Origin: Actinomycetota bacterium | Lineage (GTDB): Bacteria > Actinomycetota > Acidimicrobiia > Acidimicrobiales > RAAP-2 | Length of the DNA stretch: 44,276 nucleotides | Direction: 5' to 3' | Assembly: GCA_021324355.1 (NCBI GenBank) | Contig: JAJPJD010000002.1 | Coordinates: forward strand, 1-44,276 | Shown: positions 19,572-36,422 of the stretch, one piece after another | Layout of the letters: every line of letters begins with the position of its first letter | How positions within the stretch are numbered: position 1 is the first letter of the stretch | The notes under the pieces: model-generated | The model's database searches: none | The model's input: the letters and a program-made list of their open reading frames with translations, nothing else | Told to the model about the DNA's origin: nothing | Program-made: the position numbers and the translations under genes

Positions 19572-20162
19572 GTGCCGCGACGCAGCGACACCAAAGAGCG
19601 GCTCCTCGACGCGTCCGCCCAGCTCTTCCGACGTCAGGGGTACTGGGGAACCGGGCTGGTCGAGGTCACCGAAACCGGGCAGGCACCGTGGGGGTCCCTC
19701 TATCACTACTTCCCTGGGGGCAAGGAACAGCTGGGTGTCGAGGCGCTGGAGCGTTCCGGCAGTCGCTACCAGCACCTCATTGCGTCGGTCTTCTCCCGAC
19801 ACACGTCGGTCACCGCGGCTGTCAAGGAGTTCTTCGAGCTGATGATCGATTCGTTGGAGAAGTCAGGCTTCGCCGACGGCTGCCCGATCGCGACGGTGAC
19901 CGTGGATGTCGCCTCGCGCAGCGAGGCACTTCGCCAGGCGTGCTCGACGGCGTTCTCGGCCTGGACGGAGCAGTTGACCGAGTACTTCGAGCCGACATTC
20001 GGCGCGGCCAGCGGCCGCCTTGCGGTCTTTGCTCTCTCGACGTTCGAGGGCGCGATGGTGCTCAGTCGGGCACACCACGACATCACCCCCCTGCGCGTCG
20101 CCTGCGAGCTGCTCGTCGCCGCCTTGGACGCGGCGATCTCGGGTGGCACGCAACCGCGCTAA
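19572..20162 (+). CDS. TetR family transcriptional regulator
   Basis: The 196-residue protein has the TetR HTH near the N-terminus: KERLLDASAQLFRRQGYWGT, VTETGQAPWGSLYHYFPGGK and a following helix (residues 8-55). The C-terminal ligand domain (DGCPIATVTVDVASRSEALR, EGAMVLSRAHHD) resembles the LmrA/YxaF-type subgroup. It most likely represses itself and the divergent crotonase gene by binding the 12-base repeat at 19539-19550 (inference). The ligand is unknown, perhaps an acyl-CoA. Its stop overlaps the larC stop by four bases, tail to tail. Confidence 0.92.
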   Translation: MPRRSDTKERLLDASAQLFRRQGYWGTGLVEVTETGQAPWGSLYHYFPGGKEQLGVEALERSGSRYQHLIASVFSRHTSVTAAVKEFFELMIDSLEKSGFADGCPIATVTVDVASRSEALRQACSTAFSAWTEQLTEYFEPTFGAASGRLAVFALSTFEGAMVLSRAHHDITPLRVACELLVAALDAAISGGTQPR

Positions 20163-21403
20163 GCCGGATCGTCAGCTGGCGCCTCGGGTGCACTGGTCGG
20201 CGTCTCGGGCTCTCGAGCCCGTTCCCGCCACGCCTGCTCGGCCAAGGACGCGACCTCCGAGACAGCGAGGCCGGTCTGAGCGGCCACCCGGGCTACGTCG
20301 TCGAACTCGGCCTTGATCCGCCCTCCGCCAGCCTTCACGTTGACGGGGTGACCGGCCACGTCAACCGGCTCGATGGTCCTGGCCGCCGGCCATCGTTCCC
20401 CGGCAACGGCGCGAACGCCGAAGGTCCCAGTGTTGAGGCGGATCAGGTCTCGAAGGGTCTCGCGTAGCGAGGGGTCGGCCAGGACGTGGATGGTGTGGCC
20501 CGGGCGCCCCTTCTTCATGACCACCGGGGTGATCCAGGCATCGTGGGCTCCGGCGTCGAGCAGGGACTGGATGGCGTGCGCGAGTTGCTCGCCGGTCACG
20601 TCGTCGAGGTTCGCCTCGAGGACCACGACGGGTTGGCCGGTGTCGCCGCTGCCCGACACCGGGCCGGTCGTGCCGACCACGACCTGGGTGCAGTTGGGGA
20701 GATCGTCGAGGTCACGGCTGCCGGCACCGAATCCGGTGCTTCCCACCTCCATCGCCGGCATCGGCCCGAACGAGGACGCCAACGCGGCCACGATCGCGGC
20801 TCCAGTCGGGGTGGTGAGCTCGACCGGCACGTCCCGGCCATAGCTGGGCACCCCTTGGAGGAGTCGGACGACGGCCGGTGCCGGGTTGGGCAGCAGACCG
20901 TGCGCGGTCCGCACCATCCCAGTACCGGTCGCGATCGCGGACGCCCGTACATCATCGATCCCCAAGATCTCGAGGGCTGAAGCCGTCCCGACAACGTCGA
21001 CAATCGCGTCGTGACCTCCGACTTCATGGAAGTGCACCTGCCCAGAGGACCGGCGGTGAAGTCGGCCCTCGACCTCGGCCAGGACTGCGAAGACGGCGAG
21101 CGAGCGAGCCTCGACCCGTGGTGGCAGGCGGGCCCCTTTGACAAGGTCGACGATGTTGGCATGTGTGCGCACCACGACATCGTCTGGTGCCGACACGACG
21201 GCGCGGGTGCACGCAATCCCGCCCCGAAGCACCTCTTCGGTCTGTAGATCCCAGCCCGAGAAGGGGACCCGCCGCAGCAGCTGGCGCACCTCTTCGACGT
21301 CAGCCCCGGCGTCGAGAAGGCTGCCCAGGGCCATGTCACCGGCGATCACCGAGAAGCAGTGGAACCAGGCCACGTTCTGAGCAGGCCCCGGAGGCGGAAT
21401 CAT
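20159..21403 (-). CDS. larC: Nickel insertion protein LarC (nickel pincer cofactor synthesis)
   Basis: LarC is a CTP-dependent cyclometallase that inserts nickel into the LarB/LarE product. The 414-residue protein shows WFHCFSVIAGDMALGSLLDAG at the N-terminus (split here as FHCFS and AGDMALG motifs), the metal-binding HFHEVGGHDAIVDVVG (124-139), ELTTPTGAAIVAALA, LEANLDDVTGEQL and ITPVVMKKGRPGHT. The last two belong to the C-terminal catalytic half. In Lactobacillus plantarum the two halves are joined by a programmed frameshift; here they form one open frame. ATG at 21403 overlaps the larB stop (ATGA). The first Gly of the usual CFSGI motif is Val. Confidence 0.95.
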   Translation of the reverse strand: MIPPPGPAQNVAWFHCFSVIAGDMALGSLLDAGADVEEVRQLLRRVPFSGWDLQTEEVLRGGIACTRAVVSAPDDVVVRTHANIVDLVKGARLPPRVEARSLAVFAVLAEVEGRLHRRSSGQVHFHEVGGHDAIVDVVGTASALEILGIDDVRASAIATGTGMVRTAHGLLPNPAPAVVRLLQGVPSYGRDVPVELTTPTGAAIVAALASSFGPMPAMEVGSTGFGAGSRDLDDLPNCTQVVVGTTGPVSGSGDTGQPVVVLEANLDDVTGEQLAHAIQSLLDAGAHDAWITPVVMKKGRPGHTIHVLADPSLRETLRDLIRLNTGTFGVRAVAGERWPAARTIEPVDVAGHPVNVKAGGGRIKAEFDDVARVAAQTGLAVSEVASLAEQAWRERAREPETPTSAPEAPADDPA

Positions 21404-22161
21404 GGCAGCATCCTGGCCACCGCGCACGCCGCTCCGAACCCGTTGTCGATTCCGACAACTGCGATGCCAGCAGCGCAGGAGGCGAGCATCGCCAGCAGTG
21501 CCGTCAGGCCTTCGAAGGACGCGCCGTAACCGACGCTGGTTGGGACAGCCACCACCGGTGCCGAGGTGATCCCACCCACCAGGCTGGCTAGAGCCCCCTC
21601 CATCCCGGCAACGACCACGATCGCGTCGGCGTCATGGATCTCGTCGAGCGATGCCAGTAGCCGATGGACCCCGGCTACCCCGCAGTCGCACAGCAGGGAT
21701 GGCGAGAACCCCAGCGCAGTCAGCGTGGCATGGCACTCCTCGGCCACCGGGAGATCGGCAGTCCCGGCCGTGACCACCAGGATGCGGCCCGGTCTGGCTG
21801 GCGCCGGCCGCCAGGTCACCGTGGACAGCTGTCCGGTCGTGGTGGCCCGGTGCTCGTCGAACCCGGCGCCGGTCGCGGCGGCCACGGCCGCCTCGACCTG
21901 GGCACGCTCGGCCCGGGTGAGCAGGATCGGCCCGGTGGAACCCTTGAGCAGCTCCACGACGATGGATGCGCACTGCTCTGGCGTCTTTCCGGGTCCGTAG
22001 ATGGCCTCGGGTATGCCTTGGCGCAGGTGCCGGTGGTGGTCGATCCGGGCGAAGCCGAGGTCCGCGAACGGCAGCCGGCGAAGCTGGCCGACGGCGTCCT
22101 GGACCGAGCACGTGCCCGCAGCCACGTCGGCCAGGAGGCGTTCCAGGGCGGGTCGGTCCAT
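21400..22161 (-). CDS. larB: Pyridinium-3,5-biscarboxylic acid mononucleotide synthase LarB
   Basis: LarB carboxylates nicotinic acid adenine dinucleotide and cuts it, the first step towards the nickel-pincer cofactor. The 253-residue protein has an N-terminal helical segment (PFADLGFARIDHHRHLRQG, PEAIYGPGKTPEQ) and a PurE-like domain: VVTAGTADLPVAEEC, LCDCGVAGVHRLLA, VVAGMEGALASLVGG, PTSVGYGASFEG and LASCAAGI. Cys229 in LASCAAGI corresponds to catalytic Cys221 of the Lactobacillus enzyme. I prefer the ATG at 22161, seven bases after a GATAGT box; the GTG at 22170 (three residues longer) overlaps that box. Confidence 0.95.
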   Translation of the reverse strand: MDRPALERLLADVAAGTCSVQDAVGQLRRLPFADLGFARIDHHRHLRQGIPEAIYGPGKTPEQCASIVVELLKGSTGPILLTRAERAQVEAAVAAATGAGFDEHRATTTGQLSTVTWRPAPARPGRILVVTAGTADLPVAEECHATLTALGFSPSLLCDCGVAGVHRLLASLDEIHDADAIVVVAGMEGALASLVGGITSAPVVAVPTSVGYGASFEGLTALLAMLASCAAGIAVVGIDNGFGAACAVARMLP

Positions 22162-22168
22162 GTCGTTC

Positions 22169-22184
22169 ACTATCCTGCCCGGAT
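22169..22184. promoter_or_regulatory. Shared -10 region of larB and pheA
   Basis: ACTATCCT at 22169-22176 holds TATCCT for pheA (plus, 22171-22176, eight bases before GTG) and GATAGT for larB (minus, 22174-22169, seven bases before ATG). Four bases are common to both hexamers, so both polymerases cannot bind at once. Confidence 0.5.
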
Positions 22185-23126
22185 GTGACCCGTCCTGCGA
22201 CCTCTGTCGGGTACTTCGGCCCGGCCGGGACCTTCACTGAGCAGGCGCTCCTCACCCAGGCTGACTACGCGGCAGCCAGGCGGGAGCCTCTTGCGACCAT
22301 CGTCGACGTGCTCGATGCGGTGGATCGCGGGCAGGTCGACGTGGGATTCGTCCCGCTCGAGAATGGCATCGAAGGATCGGTCCCGATCACTCTCGACAGC
22401 TTGGTGTTCGACTTCGACCTGCTGATCCAACGTGAGGTCGTCCTGGACATCCATCTCGCGCTCTTGGCCAACGAGGGAACGAAGCTCTCCGACATCAAGG
22501 TCGTGGCGTCCTTCCCACACGCGTTGGCACAGTGCCGGAAGTTCCTTCACGCCGAGGTCTCCGGCGCCCGTACCGTCGCCGCAGAGTCCACGGCCGAGGC
22601 TGCGAGAGCGCTTTCTGAGCACCCGGACCCGAGTGCAGCAGTCATCGCGCCTCCATCGGCAGCTCAGACCTACGGGCTCGCTGTCCTCGCCGAAGCCATC
22701 GAGGATCACCCCGAGAACCAGACTCGGTTCGTCGCGGTGGCCGCCTCGGGTGTGCCGAGGCCCACTGGGCACGACCGGACGAGCATCGTCTGCTTCCAGG
22801 GAGCCGATCGGCCCGGCAACCTCCACTCGATCCTCGGTCAGTTCGCAGCCCGGGACATCAATCTGACCAAGCTCGAGTCTCGTCCGACGAAACGAGGCCT
22901 CGGGGACTACTGCTTCGTCATCGATCTCGAGGGTCACATCGGGGATGAGATCGTTGCCGATTGCTTGCGAGATTTGCACGCGAGCTTGTTCAGGGTGAAG
23001 TTCCTCGGCTCGTATCCAGCTGCCGGGCGTCAGGGGCCGGACCGGCGGCGCGATGCCGATCGAGCCTGGCGGGAGGCGGACCGGTGGATCCAGTCACTGC
23101 GGGCCCAGATCGAGCCTCGTGAATAG
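22185..23126 (+). CDS. pheA: Prephenate dehydratase PheA
   Basis: This enzyme converts prephenate to phenylpyruvate in phenylalanine synthesis. The 313-residue monofunctional form has a dehydratase domain (VGYFGPAGTFTEQALL, VPLENGIEGSVPITLDSL, NQTRFV with the catalytic Thr180-Arg-Phe) and a C-terminal ACT domain (GNLHSILGQFAARDINLTKLESRP, about 198-275 in total) that senses phenylalanine; ESRP is part of the effector site. The last 35 residues are an Arg-rich tail. It starts at GTG 22185 with a -10 box eight bases upstream. tRNA-Ser follows 23 bases after the stop. Confidence 0.95.
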   Translation: MTRPATSVGYFGPAGTFTEQALLTQADYAAARREPLATIVDVLDAVDRGQVDVGFVPLENGIEGSVPITLDSLVFDFDLLIQREVVLDIHLALLANEGTKLSDIKVVASFPHALAQCRKFLHAEVSGARTVAAESTAEAARALSEHPDPSAAVIAPPSAAQTYGLAVLAEAIEDHPENQTRFVAVAASGVPRPTGHDRTSIVCFQGADRPGNLHSILGQFAARDINLTKLESRPTKRGLGDYCFVIDLEGHIGDEIVADCLRDLHASLFRVKFLGSYPAAGRQGPDRRRDADRAWREADRWIQSLRAQIEPRE

Positions 23127-23149: not shown

Positions 23150-23237
23150 GGAGGGATGGCAGAGCGGACGATTGCGCGGCTCTTGAAAAGCCGTGGGACT
23201 TCGGTTCCCGTGGGTTCGAATCCCACTCCCTCCGCCA
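23150..23237 (+). tRNA. tRNA-Ser (anticodon UGA)
   Basis: The acceptor stem GGAGGGA pairs with TCCCTCC, followed by discriminator G and an encoded CCA. The anticodon stem CGGCT/AGCCG holds loop CTTGAAA with anticodon TGA. A long variable arm (GGGACTTCGGTTCCC) and the T arm GTGGGTTCGAATCCCAC complete a class II serine tRNA. Confidence 0.95.
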
Positions 23238-23309: not shown

Positions 23310-24233
23310 CTAGGAAGCGAGGCGGCCCTCGCCAACCTGGAGACCAGGTCGGTGACCTTGACCATCGCATCGTTGGGGATGGGTCGGCCCTGGGGCCACC
23401 GAGCCGAGGCGGATGGCGACAGCATCAACCGTCTCTTCCAGCAACTCGGCGGTCACAGGGACGGCCAGCGCTCGACCGCACTGAGGCCACCAGCCGATGA
23501 TCCGGATCGGTAGGTCGGCTCTCGAACCGAGCACGGCGGTCAGCGCGATGAACCCGAGCTCATCTCGTGCTGTCGGCTGGGGGCGGCCGGCCACCACGGT
23601 GAGCAAAGCACTCCGCCGTACGGGGCCGGCACGGTCGGTGCTGACCTCGATCGAGGTGCGAAGGTCGATCCGGCCGCGCAGGAAGAGCCGGGGCGAGGAG
23701 GCGAAGGAGATCGTCCGGTCGTCTCCGACTGCCGGGTTGACCAGTCGCGTCCAGTCAACGGCCGTGATGAGTTGGGTTGCCATGGTCACTGCCTCGGCCT
23801 CGACCAGGCTACGAGCGCCAAGGCTCAGGCCTGCCAACCACCGACACAGCGTGTGCCGACCGGCCAAGGGATGGGATCCGGAGCGAACCAGGCGATCGAT
23901 CGTCGATCGAACCGCGTCCGCCGGAGTTCCACCGGTTGCGAGGCAGGTCCTGACCGCGTCAAGGGCGACGGGACGCCGGGCAGATTCAGGGCTCCATTCG
24001 AAGGCCTGGTCCCACTGGGCACGTCCCCGGTCGGGGCGGAGCGAGTACGCGTCGATACGAATCTTGCGACCGGATTCGATGGTCGCGGCCCAACCGCGCA
24101 GGATGGCTTCTGTTCTGTGCCGGATGGGCTTCAGGTCGCGTTCGGAAATGGGCGTTCCTCGGGAGTCGGTGAGAAGGTCGGTCAGTGCCCGCGATCGAGG
24201 CAAGGCCATGGGCGAGACGGTGTTGGTAATCAT
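23310..24233 (-). CDS. Unknown protein, diverged copy of the upstream gene (PD-(D/E)XK-like core)
   Basis: I do not recognise a named family. The 307-residue protein starts at ATG 24233, overlapping the upstream gene's stop (ATGA). Its C-terminal half reads LFLRGRIDLRTSIEV, ALLTVVAGRPQPTARDELGF and PIRIIGWWPQCGRALAV, a strand-strand-helix-strand order like the RecB-type PD-(D/E)XK nuclease core. It aligns by eye with the same region of the neighbouring gene. The Asp of RGRIDL is present, but the second strand, which should carry D/E-x-K, reads LLTVVAG, so it would be catalytically dead. An N-terminal LRGWAATIES segment also matches the neighbour's LREWLEDG. The role is unknown. Confidence 0.7.
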   Translation of the reverse strand: MITNTVSPMALPRSRALTDLLTDSRGTPISERDLKPIRHRTEAILRGWAATIESGRKIRIDAYSLRPDRGRAQWDQAFEWSPESARRPVALDAVRTCLATGGTPADAVRSTIDRLVRSGSHPLAGRHTLCRWLAGLSLGARSLVEAEAVTMATQLITAVDWTRLVNPAVGDDRTISFASSPRLFLRGRIDLRTSIEVSTDRAGPVRRSALLTVVAGRPQPTARDELGFIALTAVLGSRADLPIRIIGWWPQCGRALAVPVTAELLEETVDAVAIRLGSVAPGPTHPQRCDGQGHRPGLQVGEGRLAS

Positions 24234-25090
24234 GGCTTCTCCCGTAGGGTGCTTCGCACGGTGTCGATGATCCGGACCACGCACGATGCCAGGAGGTCGT
24301 CGCAGACGTCTTCGGCTTCCACGGTTCCAGTCCTCGTGTAGAAGGTCGCAACCCGAAACGGGGGCGCGCCGCTGCGGAGGGTTTCGAGGAGGGCCGAGAA
24401 GCACCGCTCCTCCTGGTCCTGCGGCCGGGGGTGACCGGAGCGGACCTGCACGAGAGCGACCGACGCCTGACCGCTGGAAGGTGAGCCAACCACCAGGTCG
24501 AAGACACCGAGCAGCACGACACGCCCCCCCACCAGGGGTACGACGACCCGCTCATGGGTACGGGGCATCCAGCCGGGCTGGAGTCGTGGCCAACGACTGA
24601 CCAAGATGGCTGCCTGGGTCTCAAGCTCGTCGCGGAAGTCACGCAGTTGCGCTCCCTCCATTTGGCGGACGAAGCGAACGATTTCGGCCCTTCGTTTGTC
24701 CAGCTCGAGCGCGCTGAGGCCGTCGGCCAGCGGGTCTTCGATCCGACCCACCGTGACGTACTGGCGGAACAGGACTTCGATGAGTGCCGCGAGCGCCAGG
24801 CCAGGTCCCACCCTTGTGCTCTCGGCCGCGGCCGGCGGGCTCAAGGTCCGCTTAGTGACCACGAGCTCAGTGCTGGGACCAAGCGGGAGGGAGCACAAGC
24901 CATCCTCGAGCCACTCGCGCAGGCCACCGGCCAGACCGGGGTCGACCGGCGGCCGGAGGCGGGTCCGCCCCCTGATCGCGTCGAGCACCTGGTGAGTTCC
25001 GACGCTCGGTGTCGTCCTCGGTGGGGCAGCCAGATCGGGCACCCATCCACCATGGCGGCGGGCTGTGACACTGGGCGTAGGCTTTGGCAT
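24230..25090 (-). CDS. Unknown protein with degenerate PD-(D/E)XK-like core
   Basis: This is an unrecognised 286-residue protein. Residues from about 190 on read VVLLGVFDLVVGSPSSG, SVALVQVRSGHPRPQDQEER, then a helix CFSALLETLRSG and strand FRVATFYTRTG. This resembles RecB/Cas4-like nucleases (GxxD ... (D/E)xK), but the second motif is QVR instead of DxK, so activity is doubtful. The N-terminal half has GGLREWLEDGLCSL and LVVTKRTLSPP followed by helices. It looks homologous to the downstream gene with which it overlaps by ATGA. The ATG at 25090 touches the divergent gene's start; a GTG at 25042 (residue 17) is a possible start that would clear the divergent -10 box. Confidence 0.72.
   Translation of the reverse strand: MPKPTPSVTARRHGGWVPDLAAPPRTTPSVGTHQVLDAIRGRTRLRPPVDPGLAGGLREWLEDGLCSLPLGPSTELVVTKRTLSPPAAAESTRVGPGLALAALIEVLFRQYVTVGRIEDPLADGLSALELDKRRAEIVRFVRQMEGAQLRDFRDELETQAAILVSRWPRLQPGWMPRTHERVVVPLVGGRVVLLGVFDLVVGSPSSGQASVALVQVRSGHPRPQDQEERCFSALLETLRSGAPPFRVATFYTRTGTVEAEDVCDDLLASCVVRIIDTVRSTLREKP
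25078..25090 (+). promoter_or_regulatory. -10 box of the small membrane protein/patatin operon
   Basis: TAGGCT (25078-25083) lies seven bases before the GTG at 25091. It sits inside the first codons of the opposite-strand gene if that gene starts at 25090. Confidence 0.5.
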
Positions 25091-25321
25091 GTGGTGTCGG
25101 TCCAGCTGGTTGCGGCGACTGATGTGGCCTTCGGGATCGTCTTCGCCATCTTCGTGGCCGCCCTCGGCGTCCTGGCCTTCCTCGCGATCCGCTGGGGAGT
25201 TCGGCGTGACCGGGCGGGGAGGGAGGCGTGGCGGCGGCGGCTCGAAGCGGCATCGACTGGCTCACCGTCGCCCGCGGGGCACCGTGGGGCCCCTCCTCCT
25301 CGTCGCCGCGATCGCAGGTGA
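25091..25321 (+). CDS. Small single-span membrane protein
   Basis: The 76-residue protein starts at GTG 25091 behind a TAGGCT box. One membrane helix (VAFGIVFAIFVAALGVLAFLA in part, residues about 12-32) is followed by a basic segment RWGVRRDRAGREAWRRR and a Pro/Arg-rich tail, so the C-terminus is probably cytoplasmic. Its stop overlaps the patatin gene start (GTGA), so the two are translationally coupled. I recognise no family. The coupling and promoter make it credible as a gene; it may anchor or regulate the lipase, which is inference. Confidence 0.65.
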   Translation: MVSVQLVAATDVAFGIVFAIFVAALGVLAFLAIRWGVRRDRAGREAWRRRLEAASTGSPSPAGHRGAPPPRRRDRR

Positions 25322-26187
25322 CACCTCGCCGCCTGCCCTGGTTCCGGCGTCGCGAGCCCAAGACGGCCTTCGTCCTTGGCGGGGGCGGTTCGCGTGGTGC
25401 GGTTCAGGTAGGCATGCTCGCCGAGCTCGTGCAGCGGGGCATCCGGGCCGACCGGGTCTATGGTGCATCGGTCGGTGCGGTGAACGCCGCTGCCTACGCG
25501 GCTGATCCCACAGTTGAGGGGATCAAGCGCCTCGAAGACGTCTGGGTGAACTTGAGGCCGGACGACGTCTTTCCTCGGGCTCGCGTCCATGGCCCGTGGC
25601 TTTTCTTCCAACAGCGCTTGTCGGTGTATTCCAACAGCGGGCTGCGCAGGATCTTGGAGTCCGGGTTGGAGATCGACCGAATCGAGGACACCGCGATCCC
25701 CCTCGAGGTGGTCGCGACCTCGCTGCGCGATGGATCCGAGCGATGGTTCGACTCGGGGCCCATCGTGGACGCTGTGCTCGCGTCGGCGGCCATTCCTGGA
25801 ATCTTCCCTCCGGTCACGATCGACGGCGAGGCGTTCATCGATGGAGGCGTGGTTGACAACGTGCCGGTCAGCCGGGCCGCTGCCTGGGGGGCGACGCGCA
25901 TCTTCGTGCTCCTCTGCGGCCCGCCCCGCCACACCCCTCTGCCGACCAAGCGGCCCATCGAGGCCGTCATCTCTGCGTTGTTCACCAGCGTCCACGCCCG
26001 GTTCGCGCGGGAGATCGAAGAGCTACAACGCCGGCCCGGACTCCAAGTGGTCGTCCTGCGCGGGACCGAGCGCGTGCCCGAGGACTTTCGAGACTTCGGG
26101 TACTCGCCCCAGCTGATCGATGCGGGCCGGCGGGAGGTGGAGCGAGCCCTCGATGCTTTGGCCGGTCACAGGTCCGTGCTGGGCTGA
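25318..26187 (+). CDS. Patatin-like phospholipase (RssA type)
   Basis: This 289-residue protein is a patatin-fold lipid acyl hydrolase. It has the oxyanion loop GGGGSRG (residues 21-27), the nucleophile elbow GASVG (Ser51) and the catalytic Asp in FIDGGVVDNVP (Asp175), forming the Ser-Asp dyad. No signal peptide is seen, so it acts in the cytoplasm or at the inner face of the membrane. The start is the GTG overlapping the small membrane protein's stop; the longer open frame from 25228 would run inside that gene. The lhr gene starts five bases after its stop, so all three may be one transcript. Confidence 0.92.
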   Translation: MTPRRLPWFRRREPKTAFVLGGGGSRGAVQVGMLAELVQRGIRADRVYGASVGAVNAAAYAADPTVEGIKRLEDVWVNLRPDDVFPRARVHGPWLFFQQRLSVYSNSGLRRILESGLEIDRIEDTAIPLEVVATSLRDGSERWFDSGPIVDAVLASAAIPGIFPPVTIDGEAFIDGGVVDNVPVSRAAAWGATRIFVLLCGPPRHTPLPTKRPIEAVISALFTSVHARFAREIEELQRRPGLQVVVLRGTERVPEDFRDFGYSPQLIDAGRREVERALDALAGHRSVLG

Positions 26188-26191
26188 TCTG

Positions 26192-29100
26192 GTGACGCGC
26201 GCCGCCAGCCAGCCAGGGCCGGACGTGCTCGAGCTCCTCCACCCGGTGGTCAGCTCGTGGTTCTCCCGGGCCTTTCCCGGCGGGCCGACCGAGCCACAGG
26301 CTCGAGCCTGGCCTCAGGTGATGTCCGGTCGGGACGTCCTGGTTGCGTCACCAACCGGGACCGGGAAGACCCTCACTGGATTCCTGGTCGCGATCGATGC
26401 CATCTGTCGGGCCGAAATGACTGGGACCGCGAACTCGGCTGCTCCTCACGTGTTGTACGTCTCGCCGCTGCGGGCCCTTGCCGCCGACGTTCACCAGAAC
26501 CTGCTGGTACCCCTGGAGGGGATTCGCGCCGAGGCGGTACGGCTGGGGATGCCGGTTCCGGAGATCTCGGTGGCCACCAGAACCGGCGATACGCCGCCCG
26601 CACAGCGACGAGCGATGCAGAAAACGCCGCCCCACCTGCTGGTCACGACGCCCGAGTCCCTTTATCTGCTCCTCACCGCAGCATCGAGCCGGGCCCAACT
26701 CGGTCACGTGCGGACGGTGATCGTCGACGAAGTGCACACGCTGGCCCGGGACAAACGGGGCAGCCATCTCGCGCTCAGCCTCGAACGCCTTGCCAACCTT
26801 GTTGAAGCGGACGGTGGCCGGCTCCAGCGGATCGGCTTGTCGGCGACGCAGCGTCCACTTGATGTCGTGGCTCGCCTGCTCGGCGGGTCGGGTCCCAGCC
26901 GGCCGCTCCCCCAGATCATCGATTGTGGCCACCGGCGTGATCTCGATGTCGCCATCGAACTGCCAGACGCCGAGCTGGAGGCGGTCGCTCCTTCGGGACA
27001 GTTCGGGCAGGTTCTTGATCGCCTCGCCGAACTGGTGGTCGCTCACCGGACGACCCTTGTCTTCGTCAACACTCGCAAGATGGCCGAGCGGGTGGCCCAT
27101 CAGCTTTCCGAACGGCTCGAGTCGGGTGCGGGGCTCGGGGGTGACCGGCTCCTGGTGGCTGCCCACCATGGGAGCCTGTCAGCCGAGCGTCGGCGGATCG
27201 TCGAAGCGCAGCTGCGTGCCGGAGAGCTCCGAGCCTTGGTCGCCACCTCATCGCTCGAGCTCGGGATCGATGTCGGGCCGGTGGAGCTGGTCTGTCAGCT
27301 CGGCTCGCCTCGGTCGATCGGGACCTTCCTGCAGCGAGTAGGGAGGGCAAACCACACCCTCGAAGGCACACCGGCCGGCCGCCTGTTCCCGATGACTCGA
27401 GACGAGCTGGTCGAGTGCGTCGCACTGCTGGCCGCGGTGCGTGCCGGACACCTCGACCTCCTCCAGCCGCCCCAACGACCTCTTGACGTGCTTGCGCAGC
27501 AGCTGGTGGCCGAGGTGGCCGCAGCCAGCGAATGGACCGAAGCCGACCTTCTCGAGCTGGTCCGCCGAGCCACGCCTTACGCCGAACTCGGCGACGAGGA
27601 GTTCGAATCGGTGGTGGCGCTGGTGTCCGAAGGGATCATGACCGGGAGGGGCCGCAGGGGTGCGCACCTGCACCGCGACGGTGTGCACGGCGTCCTGCGG
27701 CCGAGGCGTGGCGCCCGGATCGCGGCATTGACCAGCGGCGGCGCGATCCCTGAGACCGGTGACTACCGCGTCGTCCTCGATCCTGACGGGGTGACGGTCG
27801 GATCGGTCCACGAGGACTTTGCTGTCGAAGCGACCATTGGTGACATCTTTTTGCTCGGGACGCACTCCTGGCGGGTGAACAAGGTGGAGGTGGGAACGGT
27901 CCGGGTACAAGACGCTGGCACGTTGCCACCGACCGTCCCGTTCTGGCTCGGAGAAGCCCCGGCCCGCACGCTGGAGCTCTCGCTCGAGGTCAGCCGGCTC
28001 CGCCAAATGGTGGACGACCGGCTGGCCAGCGGCGACGACCGGGGTGCACGGCTGGCGGTGCACGAGCTCTCCGGGGCGTGCGAGGAGGCGGTCAATCAGG
28101 TCGTGGACTACCTGGCCGCCGGACGGGCAGCGCTCGGGTGCCTTCCGACCCAGGAGCGGATCGTCGTGGAGCGGTTCTTCGATGACACCGAAGGAACCCA
28201 GCTCGTCATTCACAGCCCGTTCGGGGCGGCCGTCAACCGAGCCCTCGGGCTGGCATTGCGCAAGCGCTTTTGCGTCTCTTTCGACTTTGAGCTCCAGGCA
28301 GCGGCCGACGATGACACCGTCTTGTTGTCCCTCGGCCCCCAGCACAGCTTCCCGCTGTCGCAGGTCACCAAGATGCTCCCGAGCCGGCGAGCTGAAGAGG
28401 TGCTCACTCAAGCCGTGTTGCCCCACCCGATGTTCGCTGCTCGCTGGCGTTGGAACCTGAACCGAGCTCTCGTCGTCCCCCGGTCGCGCAATGGGCAGCG
28501 GCGCCCGATTCACCTCCAGCGCATGGAGGCCGACGACCTGCTGGCGGCGACGTGGCCGGCGCTGGCGGCATGCCAGGAGAACGCCCCCCCGGGACCGATC
28601 GCGGTCCCAGACCACGTGCTCGTCCGCCAAACGGTCCACGACTGCCTCCACGAGGCCCTCGACGTGGCGGGCCTCGTCGGTCTCTTGGAGCGAATCGAGG
28701 CGGGCGACGTCCAGGTCGAGCTCGTCGAGGCGGTCGAACCGTCCCCGCTCGCGCACGGGATCCTCACCGGGCGGCCGTACACCTTCTTGGACGACGCGCC
28801 GCTGGAGGAGCGGCGGTCCAGGGCGACGCCGATCGGCCGTGGACTGGTCCCGAGGCCGGACCACCCGGTGCCAGGGCCCGAGCTCGCCCCCCTTGACCCG
28901 GAGGCGGTCCAGACTGTCCTCGGGCAGGTCGCTCCCCAGCCCCGCGACCCTGAAGAGCTCCATGATCTGTTGCTCTCCTTGGTTCGAGCGAGGCCGGTCG
29001 AAGCGTGGCGGGGGCACTTCGCGGCGCTGGTCGAGGCGGGCCGGGCGACGAGCGCCGGCGGCTGCTGGGTGGCGACCGAGCGGATTGCAGCAGCCCGGTC

Positions 29101-30433
29101 GATCGAGCACGACGACGACGCCGCAGCCGAGTGCGTCTTCGGGCACCTGGCCGTCGCCGGACCGGTGAGCGCCGAGCGCCTGGTCGCCGATGGTCCGTTG
29201 CCCTCCGGCCTCGTTCGCGGGGCCCCGCTGTCCGCCGGCCGGGCCCGGAGCGCACTGGCCCGCCTGGAGGGTGCGGGGAGCGCGATTCAGTTGACCGGCG
29301 GTGAGTGGTGCGCTCGGCACCTTCTGGTCCGCATGCATGCAGCAAGCCGATCTCGGCGACGCAGCCGAGTGGAGCCGGCCAGCATCGCCCAGTTCGTGCA
29401 GTTCCTGGCCCGCTGGCAACACGTGGCGCCGGGGACCCAGCTGGAGGGCCGGTCGGGGTTGCTCGGGGTGATCGAGCAGCTGGCCGGGTACGAGGCCGCA
29501 GCCGGAGCGTGGGAGCGGCACCTCTTCCCGGCGAGGGTCGTCGGCTACGAACCGAGCTGGCTCGACGAGCTGTGCCTGTCGGGAGAGGTTGCCTGGGGCC
29601 GCTTGGCGCCGCGGGGCCTCGGCTCGGACCCAACGGCGCGGCGCGGCGGGGCGACACCGTCGTCGGCTACCCCGCTCGCCTTCGCTCGCCGGGAGGACTT
29701 GGGGTGGCTGCTCGCCGCCGTTCGGGCTGGCGAGCAGACCGCCGAGCCCTCGGTGGGTGCGGCTGCGGACCTCCTGGCCGTTCTTCGATCCCGGGGTGCG
29801 AGCTTCCGCGCCGACCTGGTGTCCGCTACTGGACGGCTCCCGAGCGAGGTCGACGAAGGGTTGTGGGATCTCGTTGCTCGCGGGTTGGTCACCGCCGACG
29901 CGTTCTCTGCGGTCCGCCAGCTGCTGCGGGCGCGGCCTTCGAGGCCCCGTGCTGGGCCGCCGCAGCGGAGGCTCGCCCGGCGACGGGCACGCACGGGCTC
30001 GGGTGTTGGTGAGGGTCGGTGGTCGCTCATGCCCTCTGACGTCCAGCCGCCGACCGACGAACTGGCCGAGGCCGTGGCTTCGCAGCTGCTCGAGCGGTGG
30101 GGAGTGGTCAGCTGGGAGTTGTGGTCGCAGGAGTCCTTCCGGGTGCCCTGGCGGGCAGTGATCGGCGCGCTGCGTCGCTTCGAGGCCCGAGGCGTCGCCC
30201 TCGGGGGCCGGTTCGTGGCCGGGCTCTCCGGGGAGCAGTACGCGCTGGGCGAGGCGGCGCAGCTGCTTGCGTCGGTCCGGCGAGACCAGGTCGACGAGAC
30301 CGTGGTCGTTGCCGGATCGGACCCGCTGAACTTGACCGGCGCGGTCCTAGGTGGCGCCCGGGTCCCGGCTGTGCGGAACCGGATGGTTTCGTTCCGCGCC
30401 GGCGTGGTCGTCGAGGAACACGCGCTGGCCTGA
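26192..30433 (+). CDS. lhr: Large ATP-dependent helicase Lhr
   Basis: Lhr is a superfamily 2 DNA helicase induced by DNA damage in mycobacteria. The 1413-residue protein has Walker A SPTGTGKT (53-60), motif Ia YVSPLRALAADV, DEVH box (179-182), SAT motif LSATQRP, and motifs IV-VI (LVFVNTRKMAERVA, LVATSSLELGIDVG, QRVGRANH). The winged-helix and beta-barrel core follow (ETGDYRVVLDPDG, LGTHSWRVNKVE), then the long Lhr C-terminal domain of about 550 residues. It is slightly shorter than the mycobacterial enzyme (about 1500). GTG at 26192 lies just after the patatin gene; the open frame upstream lies in that gene. It ends 20 bases before pxpA. Confidence 0.95.
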   Translation: MTRAASQPGPDVLELLHPVVSSWFSRAFPGGPTEPQARAWPQVMSGRDVLVASPTGTGKTLTGFLVAIDAICRAEMTGTANSAAPHVLYVSPLRALAADVHQNLLVPLEGIRAEAVRLGMPVPEISVATRTGDTPPAQRRAMQKTPPHLLVTTPESLYLLLTAASSRAQLGHVRTVIVDEVHTLARDKRGSHLALSLERLANLVEADGGRLQRIGLSATQRPLDVVARLLGGSGPSRPLPQIIDCGHRRDLDVAIELPDAELEAVAPSGQFGQVLDRLAELVVAHRTTLVFVNTRKMAERVAHQLSERLESGAGLGGDRLLVAAHHGSLSAERRRIVEAQLRAGELRALVATSSLELGIDVGPVELVCQLGSPRSIGTFLQRVGRANHTLEGTPAGRLFPMTRDELVECVALLAAVRAGHLDLLQPPQRPLDVLAQQLVAEVAAASEWTEADLLELVRRATPYAELGDEEFESVVALVSEGIMTGRGRRGAHLHRDGVHGVLRPRRGARIAALTSGGAIPETGDYRVVLDPDGVTVGSVHEDFAVEATIGDIFLLGTHSWRVNKVEVGTVRVQDAGTLPPTVPFWLGEAPARTLELSLEVSRLRQMVDDRLASGDDRGARLAVHELSGACEEAVNQVVDYLAAGRAALGCLPTQERIVVERFFDDTEGTQLVIHSPFGAAVNRALGLALRKRFCVSFDFELQAAADDDTVLLSLGPQHSFPLSQVTKMLPSRRAEEVLTQAVLPHPMFAARWRWNLNRALVVPRSRNGQRRPIHLQRMEADDLLAATWPALAACQENAPPGPIAVPDHVLVRQTVHDCLHEALDVAGLVGLLERIEAGDVQVELVEAVEPSPLAHGILTGRPYTFLDDAPLEERRSRATPIGRGLVPRPDHPVPGPELAPLDPEAVQTVLGQVAPQPRDPEELHDLLLSLVRARPVEAWRGHFAALVEAGRATSAGGCWVATERIAAARSIEHDDDAAAECVFGHLAVAGPVSAERLVADGPLPSGLVRGAPLSAGRARSALARLEGAGSAIQLTGGEWCARHLLVRMHAASRSRRRSRVEPASIAQFVQFLARWQHVAPGTQLEGRSGLLGVIEQLAGYEAAAGAWERHLFPARVVGYEPSWLDELCLSGEVAWGRLAPRGLGSDPTARRGGATPSSATPLAFARREDLGWLLAAVRAGEQTAEPSVGAAADLLAVLRSRGASFRADLVSATGRLPSEVDEGLWDLVARGLVTADAFSAVRQLLRARPSRPRAGPPQRRLARRRARTGSGVGEGRWSLMPSDVQPPTDELAEAVASQLLERWGVVSWELWSQESFRVPWRAVIGALRRFEARGVALGGRFVAGLSGEQYALGEAAQLLASVRRDQVDETVVVAGSDPLNLTGAVLGGARVPAVRNRMVSFRAGVVVEEHALA

Positions 30434-30454: not shown

Positions 30455-31224
30455 TGGGCGTGGCCCGGTCCATCGACCTCAATGCCGACCTTGGTGAGCG
30501 CTACGACGGCTGGCAGCCGGGTGTTGACGACGCCTTGCTCGCCGTGGTGACCACCGCCCACATCGCCTGTGGCTTCCACTCGGGGGACCCCGACGTGATG
30601 GTCGAGACCGTGAGGGCGGCGGCGGCTCGCGGCGCAGCCGTCGGTGCGCACCCTTCATACCCCGACCGAGAGGGCTTCGGGCGCCGCCCGATGGACCTGG
30701 GCCTGGACCAGGTCCGAGCAGCCGTCTTGTACCAGGTGGGGGCGCTCCAGGGGATCGCCCGCGCCGAGGGCGCAACCGTGGTCTCGGTCAAGCCTCACGG
30801 CTCGCTCTACAACCGGATGGCCGTCGAGGCCGATTGTGCACGCGCGGTCGCCGAGGCGGTGCAGCAGCTCGATCCGAACCTGTGGCTGGTCGTGCCGGCT
30901 GGGACGCCGGCGGTCGACGCCGCCCGATCAGTGGGGGTCCGGGTGGCTCAGGAGGCCTTCTGTGATCGCACCTATCAACCGGACGGGACCCTTACGTCCC
31001 GGGGTGCCGCCGGCGCAGTGCTCACCGACCCGGAGGCAGTGCAGGCGCAGGCAGTGCGCCTCGCTCACGATCACTGCGTGGAGGCGTCCGACGGGTCGAT
31101 CCTCCACTTGGAACCCGACACTCTCTGCATCCATGGCGACACACCCGGCGCCGCCGACCTCGCCGGCGCGGTGCGGCGCGCGCTGGAAGCCCATCTCGAG
31201 GTCAGCCCGTTCGCAGCCAGATGA
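30454..31224 (+). CDS. pxpA: 5-oxoprolinase subunit PxpA (LamB/YcsF family)
   Basis: PxpA works with PxpB and PxpC to open 5-oxoproline (pyroglutamate), a spontaneous glutamine/glutamate damage product, to glutamate with ATP. The 256-residue protein shows IDLNADLGERYDGW, HIACGFHSGDPDVM, VGAHPSYPDREGFGRRPM, VKPHGSLYNRMAV, FCDRTYQPDGTLTSRG and LCIHGDTPGA, all family signatures. It begins at ATG with a leaderless -10 box and overlaps the fused pxpB-pxpC gene by ATGA. Confidence 0.96.
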   Translation: MGVARSIDLNADLGERYDGWQPGVDDALLAVVTTAHIACGFHSGDPDVMVETVRAAAARGAAVGAHPSYPDREGFGRRPMDLGLDQVRAAVLYQVGALQGIARAEGATVVSVKPHGSLYNRMAVEADCARAVAEAVQQLDPNLWLVVPAGTPAVDAARSVGVRVAQEAFCDRTYQPDGTLTSRGAAGAVLTDPEAVQAQAVRLAHDHCVEASDGSILHLEPDTLCIHGDTPGAADLAGAVRRALEAHLEVSPFAAR

Positions 31225-32846
31225 CTGGCTCCCGCTTGCCGGCCGATCGAGGCGTCCAGTTGTTCGGGGACAGTGCGCTGTTCCTTGCGGCCTCGGGACC
31301 CGAAGCCGCCGGCGGGCTCGGCGAGGCGATCCGGGCCGCTTGTGTTCCCGGTGTCCTCGACGTGGTTGCCGGCTTGGACTCCGTGCTCGTCCACGTCGAC
31401 CCGGACTGCGACGTGGATGTCGTCAGCCACCAGCTCGTCGACGTTCGTGTCCGCCGCCGGCTGAGGCGCCGTCGGACGGTGGTCCTCCGGGTGGCGTTCG
31501 ATGGCCCCGATCTCGATGAAGTCGGGGTCCGAAGCGGACTCGGGGTCGACGGCGTCCGTCGGGCCCTGTGCTCGAGGCCGTTGCGGGTCGCCTTCCTCGG
31601 GTTCACCCCAGGCTTCGCCTACTTGCGCGGTCTCCCCGGGCCGCTGGCCCGGGTGGCCCGCCGTCCGAGCCCTCGACCCCGGGTCCCGGCCGGGTCGGTG
31701 GCTGTCGGTGGTGGCCACGCCGCGGTGTACCCCCAGGCCACCCCAGGTGGCTGGCAGCTCGTCGGGCGGACGGACGCGACGTTGTTCGACCCGGACACGC
31801 CACCGTATGCGACGTTGGCACCGGGAGACACGGTCCGCTTCGAGGAGGTGGAACCGGGCGAGCTCGGGCCACCACTCGAGCCGCGCCGAACCCTGCCCCG
31901 CCGCGCCCCCGACGCGGCGTTCGAGGTCCGTTCCCCTGGGGCGCTGACCACCCCGCAGGACACCGGCCGCATCGGTTTCGCCCACCTCGGAGTCCCGCGC
32001 TCGGGGGCCGCCGACCCCGACGCCTACGCCCTGGCCAATGCCCTGGTCGGGAACCCGCCGGACGCGGCCTGCCTGGAAATGACCGCGCACGGTCCTGATC
32101 TGCTGTGTCGGCGGGAGGTCCACGTGGCTGTGGTGGGCAGGGACGCGGCGGTGAGCGTCGACGGCCGACCGGCTCCGGTGGGCCGGGTCATCCCCCTGGC
32201 TCCAGGCCAGCGCCTGCGGGTGGGTCACACCGGTCGGGACCTTCGGGCGTATCTGGCCGTGCGGGGCGGCTTCGACACCCCGCTGGTTCTGGGGTCGCGC
32301 TCGGTCGACCGGCTAGTCGGCCTCGGCGGCGAGCCGTTGGCTGTCGGTGACGAGCTCGGGATCGGCGAGCCCGCCGGGCCGCTCGCTGACCATCTCGTCC
32401 CCGGCCCTCCTCTCCGCAGCGAGCCGTCCCGACGGGTGTTGCGGGTCCTGCCCTTGGAGGCAGATCGGGCATCGACGCTGTTCGGCCGGCCCTTCCGGGT
32501 CGACTCGGCGAGCGACCGGGTGGGCATCCGGCTCGAGGCGCTCGACGAGGGAGCGACGGCAGGCGTCGGCGGCGAGCGTTCCTCGGTCGGCACCACCATC
32601 GGGACTGTTCAGGTCCCGCCCGGTGGCGACCCGGTGATCCTGGGGCCGGACCATGCCACCGTTGGGGGCTATGCAGTCCCGGCGGTGGTGATCTCGGCCG
32701 ACTGGGGCGAGCTCGGTCGGTGCCAACCAGGGGACCTGGTCGAGCTGCAGCCGGTCGACGCTGCCGAGGCGTCCCGAGCTCGGCAGGCCCGGGCCAGAGC
32801 CCTGGCTGCGGCGGTCGCAGGCCACTATCCGCTGCGCACGGCGTGA
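31221..32846 (+). CDS. Fused 5-oxoprolinase subunits PxpB-PxpC (KipI-KipA)
   Basis: This 541-residue protein joins the two remaining subunits of the prokaryotic 5-oxoprolinase. The PxpB part (about 1-215) has FGDSALFLAA, VAFLGFTPGFAYLRGLP, RVPAGSVAVGGGHAAVYPQ and GGWQLVGRTD. The PxpC part (about 225-541) has GALTTPQDTGRIGFAHLGVPR, GAADPDAYALANALVGN, YLAVRGGFDTPLVLGSRS and GYAVPAVVISADWGELGRCQPGD. The linker is short. The longest of these are broken here only for display. Such fusions are known in other bacteria. It starts at ATG overlapping pxpA and ends 7 bases before the convergent permease gene. Confidence 0.93.
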   Translation: MTGSRLPADRGVQLFGDSALFLAASGPEAAGGLGEAIRAACVPGVLDVVAGLDSVLVHVDPDCDVDVVSHQLVDVRVRRRLRRRRTVVLRVAFDGPDLDEVGVRSGLGVDGVRRALCSRPLRVAFLGFTPGFAYLRGLPGPLARVARRPSPRPRVPAGSVAVGGGHAAVYPQATPGGWQLVGRTDATLFDPDTPPYATLAPGDTVRFEEVEPGELGPPLEPRRTLPRRAPDAAFEVRSPGALTTPQDTGRIGFAHLGVPRSGAADPDAYALANALVGNPPDAACLEMTAHGPDLLCRREVHVAVVGRDAAVSVDGRPAPVGRVIPLAPGQRLRVGHTGRDLRAYLAVRGGFDTPLVLGSRSVDRLVGLGGEPLAVGDELGIGEPAGPLADHLVPGPPLRSEPSRRVLRVLPLEADRASTLFGRPFRVDSASDRVGIRLEALDEGATAGVGGERSSVGTTIGTVQVPPGGDPVILGPDHATVGGYAVPAVVISADWGELGRCQPGDLVELQPVDAAEASRARQARARALAAAVAGHYPLRTA

Positions 32847-36251: not shown

Positions 36252-36340
36252 GGAGAGGTGCGAGAGCGGCCGAATCGGACTCACTGCTAATGAGTTGACT
36301 GGGGAAACCCGGTCCGAGGGTTCAAATCCCTCCCTCTCCG
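36252..36340 (+). tRNA. tRNA-Ser (anticodon GCU)
   Basis: The acceptor stem GGAGAGG pairs with CCTCTCC, with discriminator G. The anticodon stem ACTCA/TGAGT holds loop CTGCTAA with anticodon GCT. The long variable arm and the T arm GAGGGTTCAAATCCCTC fit a class II serine tRNA. CCA is not encoded, unlike the other tRNA-Ser in the window. Confidence 0.95.
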
Positions 36341-36422
36341 CGAGCCGGCCCGGTACCGGGTACGCCACCTCGAGCGTCCGCCCGATGGCGGCGACCCGCC
36401 GCGGGCGGTCAGGGAGAGGGAC

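Follow-up and report, generated by a model that had tools for sequence, protein, structure and literature searches.

Two overlapping genes in the window (the whole 44,276-nucleotide stretch of DNA that was analysed), here called A and B, belong to a family in which pseudo-nucleases occur in pairs and intermediates survive among living relatives, and we think it probable that their products associate as an obligate heterodimer that would bind nucleic acid and not cut it. Several features point to such a non-cutting complex: the fold is kept, catalytic residues are gone, one partner is basic, and the pairing is strict. The relatives can be ordered into a nested series: an intact iron-sulphur nuclease, then a copy that lacks the motif-I His and also the Glu, and last a copy whose one remaining catalytic residue is an Asp; the partner, B, has lost the site in every member seen. 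Such a series offers a way of testing how an enzyme turns into a structural pair, in what order its residues are lost, and what ligand the pair has. A search of the open-licence literature found no paper joining acidimicrobi- with the RecB family, or PDDEXK with pseudonuclease.

The gene pair and its predicted fold

The positions of A, B and their neighbours are listed in Table 1. An earlier note on this DNA had described two overlapping reading frames beside a tRNA-Ser and facing a lipase operon. Both frames are present and overlap at an ATGA, an arrangement that suggests translational coupling of A and B; there is a longer mechanical ORF for B (23310–24404), and we judge its GTG start to be unlikely. 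The tRNA-Ser does adjoin the pair and is convergent with B. The lipase gene, which encodes a patatin-like phospholipase, does not face the pair as described, and is divergent from A with the two 5′ ends adjacent; the region between them probably holds the promoters of both genes. Beyond B, larC and larB (nickel pincer cofactor; 20159–22170, − strand) adjoin pheA, in an order that is kept at many of the relatives' loci. Elsewhere in the window there is a second tRNA-Ser (GCT; 36252–36341, + strand), and a gene at 31221–32846 (+ strand) encodes a protein with 5-oxoprolinase PxpB-like and PxpC-like parts that match below curated cut-offs.

Table 1. Features of the A–B locus, in window coordinates.
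Feature	Coordinates	Strand	Description or basis
Gene A	24230..25090	−	286 aa, degenerate PD-(D/E)XK protein (predicted), upstream copy
Gene B	23310..24233	−	307 aa, degenerate PD-(D/E)XK protein (predicted), downstream copy
A/B overlap, ATGA	24230..24233	−	A stop at 24230–24232, B ATG at 24233; from sequence
Divergent intergenic region, A and patatin gene	25091..25227	.	ORF coordinates
Patatin-like phospholipase, divergent from A	25228..26187	+	PF01734, E 1.3e-38
Large ATP-dependent helicase, presumably of Lhr type	26120..30433	+	NCBIfam helicase models, below cut-offs
tRNA-Ser(TGA), convergent with B	23150..23237	+	tRNA annotation
Prephenate dehydratase, pheA	22170..23126	+	Neighbour beyond the 3′ side of B, opposite strand to B

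Neither window protein is recognised by Pfam (no match at E 5, PDDEXK_1, PF12705, included) or by NCBIfam (no family match at E 5). PDDEXK_1 comprises the RecB C-terminal, Cas4, AddB and Dna2-type nucleases, many of which have a four-Cys iron-sulphur cluster. AlphaFold2 models of A and B were made separately, each from rows of its own paralogue only (pLDDT 85.7 and pTM 0.81 for A; pLDDT 88.1 and pTM 0.82 for B), and both proteins are predicted to have a PD-(D/E)XK fold of the RecB/Cas4 branch. The best matches of the A model are to ACE1 (9iab; 190 aligned residues, 3.3 Å) and AdnA (9np6) at Z 13.3, with Dna2 (Z 12.0), Cas4 (11.7) and AddAB chain B (10.7) further down; the B model matches Dna2 (Z 9.9; 223 aligned residues, 5.1 Å), AdnA (9.8), ACE1 (9.4) and AddAB chain B (8.8). 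The earlier note had proposed a RecB/Cas4-type core in tandem, degenerate in both copies, and had named models that differ from each other or lack the fold as the outcome that would count against it. Both models do have the fold, and their best solved matches, among those listed, are to the same nucleases; the proposal is supported.

RecC of the RecBCD complex carries a dead nuclease domain with the fold of the RecB nuclease, and the A model has a weak match to RecC residues 825–1034 (Foldseek E 0.0017–0.0025), with a Z of 6.7 that is below the tool's noise mark of 8. The likeness lies in the dead nuclease fold; unlike RecC, A–B is without helicase domains, both of its members are degenerate, and the partner is a paralogue. 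Chi is reported to be recognised in a tunnel of RecC (PMC7644769).

Among the relatives, PDDEXK_1 (E up to 10) matches 24 of 30 single-copy homologues, 15 of 26 A proteins and none of 26 B proteins, and all three single-copy homologues scanned exceed its cut-off. The single-copy homologues share the motifs and the Cys signature of these nucleases, whereas A and B of the window share the predicted fold, have lost catalytic residues and the Cys, and lie side by side as two paralogues. In a PDDEXK_1 search of 41 genomes that included six congeners of the window's genome, A of all six reaches the cut-off (G001 barely), and the window's own A is absent from the matches listed. The best match in each of the 41 genomes is another locus, so other PDDEXK_1 proteins are also present. 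There is, for instance, a separate RecB-family exonuclease in the same genomes (e.g. G000:C39:111384-112118), which belongs to the same Pfam family and has visible motifs and three C-terminal Cys, but it is a distinct gene at another position. PHROGs gave one insignificant match, for A only (E 0.32), and sequences of solved structures gave no match to the single-copy profile. A defence role was considered and rejected, with no PADLOC match for A or B at E 1; the single-copy homologues have two weak DruK matches (best E 8.6e-8) and one weak Cas4 match, as expected from the shared fold.

Paralogy, pairing and origin

Plain alignment could not settle whether A and B are paralogues, as BLASTP gives an E of only 0.12. 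Comparison of the A-family and B-family profiles (26 rows each) gives an E of 1.1e-14 over 246 columns, and a single-copy profile (30 rows) matches A with an E of 3.6e-57 and B with an E of 1.5e-19. Iterated HMMs, one begun from A and one from B, gather essentially the same proteins, and B alone as a query matches single-copy homologues in four genomes (E 1.3e-4 to 9.2e-7). A and B share common ancestry, and the paralogy claimed in the earlier note is more than chance.

We surveyed 100 related genomes; 61 belong to the window's family, and each of the remaining 39 represents a different family of the same order. A as a query has matches in 86 of these and B in 61, both counts including single-copy genes. 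Within the window's family, A and B are on one contig in 57 of the 61 genomes, spanning 20 genera. In one of the exceptions (G036) A and B are at the ends of two contigs, in two (G007 and G056) one member is at a contig end, and in the last (G027) neither A nor B was found. Among the 39 other families there is a single copy in 25, a pair in two (G068 and G098) and no match to A in 12; the pair is also present in a further family, f45 (G317). Across the phylum, the single-copy profile matches 44 of 198 genomes, and outside the class there are 28 of these matches with an E below 1e-41 and three more that are weak. The C-terminal Cys signature is present at all of the 14 loci read outside the class; with a simple pattern search, motif I went undetected at two of these and D-x-K at another two. 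The family is also carried by contigs titled Bifidobacterium breve or Acidobacteria/Acidobacteriota (L127, L110 and L165), titles that look like mislabelled metagenome bins.

The earlier note had asked whether the two genes are always adjacent, and at loci picked around A or B matches all 84 records (59 from genome handles, 25 from contig loci; the two sets overlap) have both genes on one strand with A first. In 42 of the 84 the stop and the start could overlap by 4 bp (NTGA), and A and B are one open frame in three of the 59 genomes: G098, and the congeneric G026 and G038. The obligate adjacency and the fused frames fit a heterodimer, and genes that overlap and are sometimes one chain would most likely encode an obligate one. 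The distances of A and B are correlated (raw r 0.76–0.82), but B is at least as closely correlated with typA and with the helicase (0.83–0.86), and the pair is favoured by the partial correlations only (0.30–0.49 with neighbour genes removed; at most 3 of 2,000 permutations as high).

Two quick trees were made, both rooted on the other RecB-family exonuclease described above as outgroup. In the larger one (104 rows, with the rows of nine genomes left out beforehand and two outgroup rows lost) B is one clade with support of 100, and A is nearly so, with the divergent single-copy proteins of G079 and G091 falling with A. In the other (42 hand-picked rows) the A and B clades both have support of 100. 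In neither tree are A and B joined, each being on its own long stem among the single-copy proteins, so the trees do not show one shared duplication; they also do not reject it, and constraining A and B to one clade in the 42-row tree lowers the log-likelihood by 0.49 (p-AU 0.497). The simplest explanation of the adjacency is a tandem duplication, unproven by the trees, in which a single-copy iron-sulphur RecB/Cas4-type nuclease would have given rise to A and B, presumably in one local event.

Loss of the active site

The His of motif I, the Glu, the Asp of motif II and the [DE]xK are needed in RecB/Cas4 enzymes. We followed these in an alignment of 217 domains (80 single-copy, 68 A and 69 B rows), of which 25 single-copy, 43 A and 44 B rows are from genome handles and 55, 25 and 25, respectively, are from contig loci; the contig loci are the best 80 of 102, selected by conserved peptides, and the two sources are partly the same genomes, so that independent counts are lower. 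All four elements are present in 78 of the 80 single-copy rows, the other two being without the His only, and four Cys (one N-terminal, three C-terminal) are present in 79, the remaining row having ambiguous letters. The full active-site set is in none of the 68 A rows and none of the 69 B rows. The B rows are also without [DE]xK and without the four Cys in every case, and B has become basic, with a median domain pI of 9.64 (6.0 for A and 5.37 for the single-copy proteins). That A is on the whole slightly acidic counts against the preferred reading. The window proteins have pI values of 8.8 (A) and 10.8 (B).

A is more varied. D..[DE]xK is kept in 36 of the 68 rows, and all 13 rows with four Cys fall within these 36. 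The losses are thus nested, which suggests that the His and Glu went before the cluster and the cluster before D/E-x-K. In the window, A has kept the motif-II Asp (residue 198, in GVFDL), has QVR at the D/E-x-K site (residues 215–217), and is without the motif-I His, the Glu and the iron-sulphur Cys; in B, the Asp of GRIDL is the sole active-site residue kept, the D/E-x-K site is TVV, and the Cys signature is absent. The loss of D/E-x-K from both proteins is as the earlier note had it, but its picture of a degenerate core needs qualifying, as the motif-II Asp is still there in both. Judged by their residues, the window's A and B would not qualify as active RecB/Cas4 nucleases.

We propose that B lost its whole active site and became basic. 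In A the motif-I His and also the Glu would have gone first; the iron-sulphur Cys would have followed in some lineages, and the D/E-x-K, as in the window, last of all. What is left would be the framework of a nuclease, presumably including the groove for nucleic acid, and the A–B heterodimer would most likely bind DNA or RNA without cutting it and act as a sensor, a clamp or a docking platform.

The variation in A leaves room for a different reading, in which A is still catalytic in many lineages with an altered chemistry (His to Asp, Glu to Gln, D..[DE]xK kept), B is its dedicated non-catalytic partner, and activity was lost secondarily in lineages like that of the window. The 36 rows with D..[DE]xK are the ones where A may still cut, and there is an Asp at the His site in 34 of the 68 rows and a Gln at the Glu site in 34, as if selected; moreover, [DE]xK is still there in A of all six sampled congeners of the window's genome. 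However, none of the 68 A rows has the full set (the His stands at its site in seven), the window has QVR, and the share of rows with D..[DE]xK depends on their source, being 13 of 43 from genome handles and 23 of 25 from the contig loci, where the choice by conserved peptides favoured such copies. Rates of substitution (NG86, 11 genome pairs for each gene) give a dN/dS of 0.10–0.43 for A and 0.10–0.38 for B, with synonymous sites near saturation in several pairs and YN00 without an estimate in seven of the 22 comparisons. Both genes are under purifying selection, and the three A pairs without D..[DE]xK are similarly constrained (0.10–0.19), which also argues against a retained activity; we regard a catalytic A as rather unlikely, if worth keeping in mind. 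The nested loss of catalytic residues and Cys in A could instead be that of pseudogenes on their way out, and six of the best B rows come from matches that span one stop near the C-terminal end. We give this almost no credence, as the dN/dS values are the opposite of the near 1 expected in decay and the pair is kept in 57 of the 61 genomes, across the 20 genera noted above.

Neighbouring genes and a possible ribosomal role

Conserved neighbours were considered as a clue to the function of the pair, and none fixes it. The patatin gene is present at 35 of 59 A–B loci, always upstream of A on the other strand (35 of 35), and the Lhr-type helicase at 31, always on the strand opposite A–B (31 of 31). 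At 34 of the 59 loci there is a typA/BipA gene downstream of B in the same orientation, 6–108 bp past the aligned B stop; this is so in 13 of the 20 genera of the window's family, but typA is absent from the window's own locus. None of these three genes (patatin, helicase, typA) turned up in the stretches flanking single-copy genes, and 17 further loci have no neighbour common to more than four others. A typA gene behind B would be consistent with a ribosomal role and a divergent helicase with DNA work, neither being evidence enough.

The ribosomal role can be put more precisely, with A–B as an rRNA-binding heterodimer of pseudo-nucleases that is a bacterial architectural counterpart of the mL37–mL65 pair. 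The B model matches mitoribosomal chains, which from their chain letters we take to be mL65 and mL37. In animal mitoribosomes, mL37–mL65 (MRPL37 and MRPS30) is described as two endonucleases, repurposed and joined in a pseudo-dimer, that contact rRNA on a reduced domain III of the 23S rRNA (PMC8998825). A–B would resemble it as a pair of degenerate nucleases, and the typA gene behind B counts in favour. Nevertheless, the structural match of B has a Z of 4.4–5.0, inside the tool's stated noise range, no sequence link to A–B was found, and none of 26 B members matches the mitoribosomal Pfam families. Nor do the rRNA genes suggest a compensation like that of mL37–mL65: 23S rRNA was found in six of the 18 genomes searched, two of which carry A–B (G026, full length, and G016, in pieces), and the sole full-length gene from an A–B genome, that of G026, is not shortened; no 23S rRNA was found in the window's genome. 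We consider a ribosome-associated pair improbable, and slightly more so the particular version in which A–B grips rRNA on the ribosome or its precursors, convergently with mL37–mL65, and TypA/BipA is its operon partner in many relatives. Our preferred reading is still the heterodimer that binds nucleic acid without cutting it.

We note that the 23S genes of both A–B genomes have an insertion of ~0.7 kb at the same site (L239:3663-4367, and L242 of G016). An ORF overlapping the insertion in G026 has a motif by which we take it to resemble a LAGLIDADG homing endonuclease, so the insertion is probably an intron; Rfam named none there. The single-copy nuclease gene often has as its neighbour, mostly in divergent orientation, a gene for a small protein of ~100–130 aa (e.g. 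L071:5610-5912, L080:5123-5515 and L064:6789-7247), and the two such proteins scanned have no Pfam match. With a 61-residue query this small protein is found in 21 of the 25 single-copy genomes, in none of the 61 genomes of the window's family and in neither G068 nor G098. It is also present in two genomes without a detected nuclease, and in some genomes it is encoded elsewhere.
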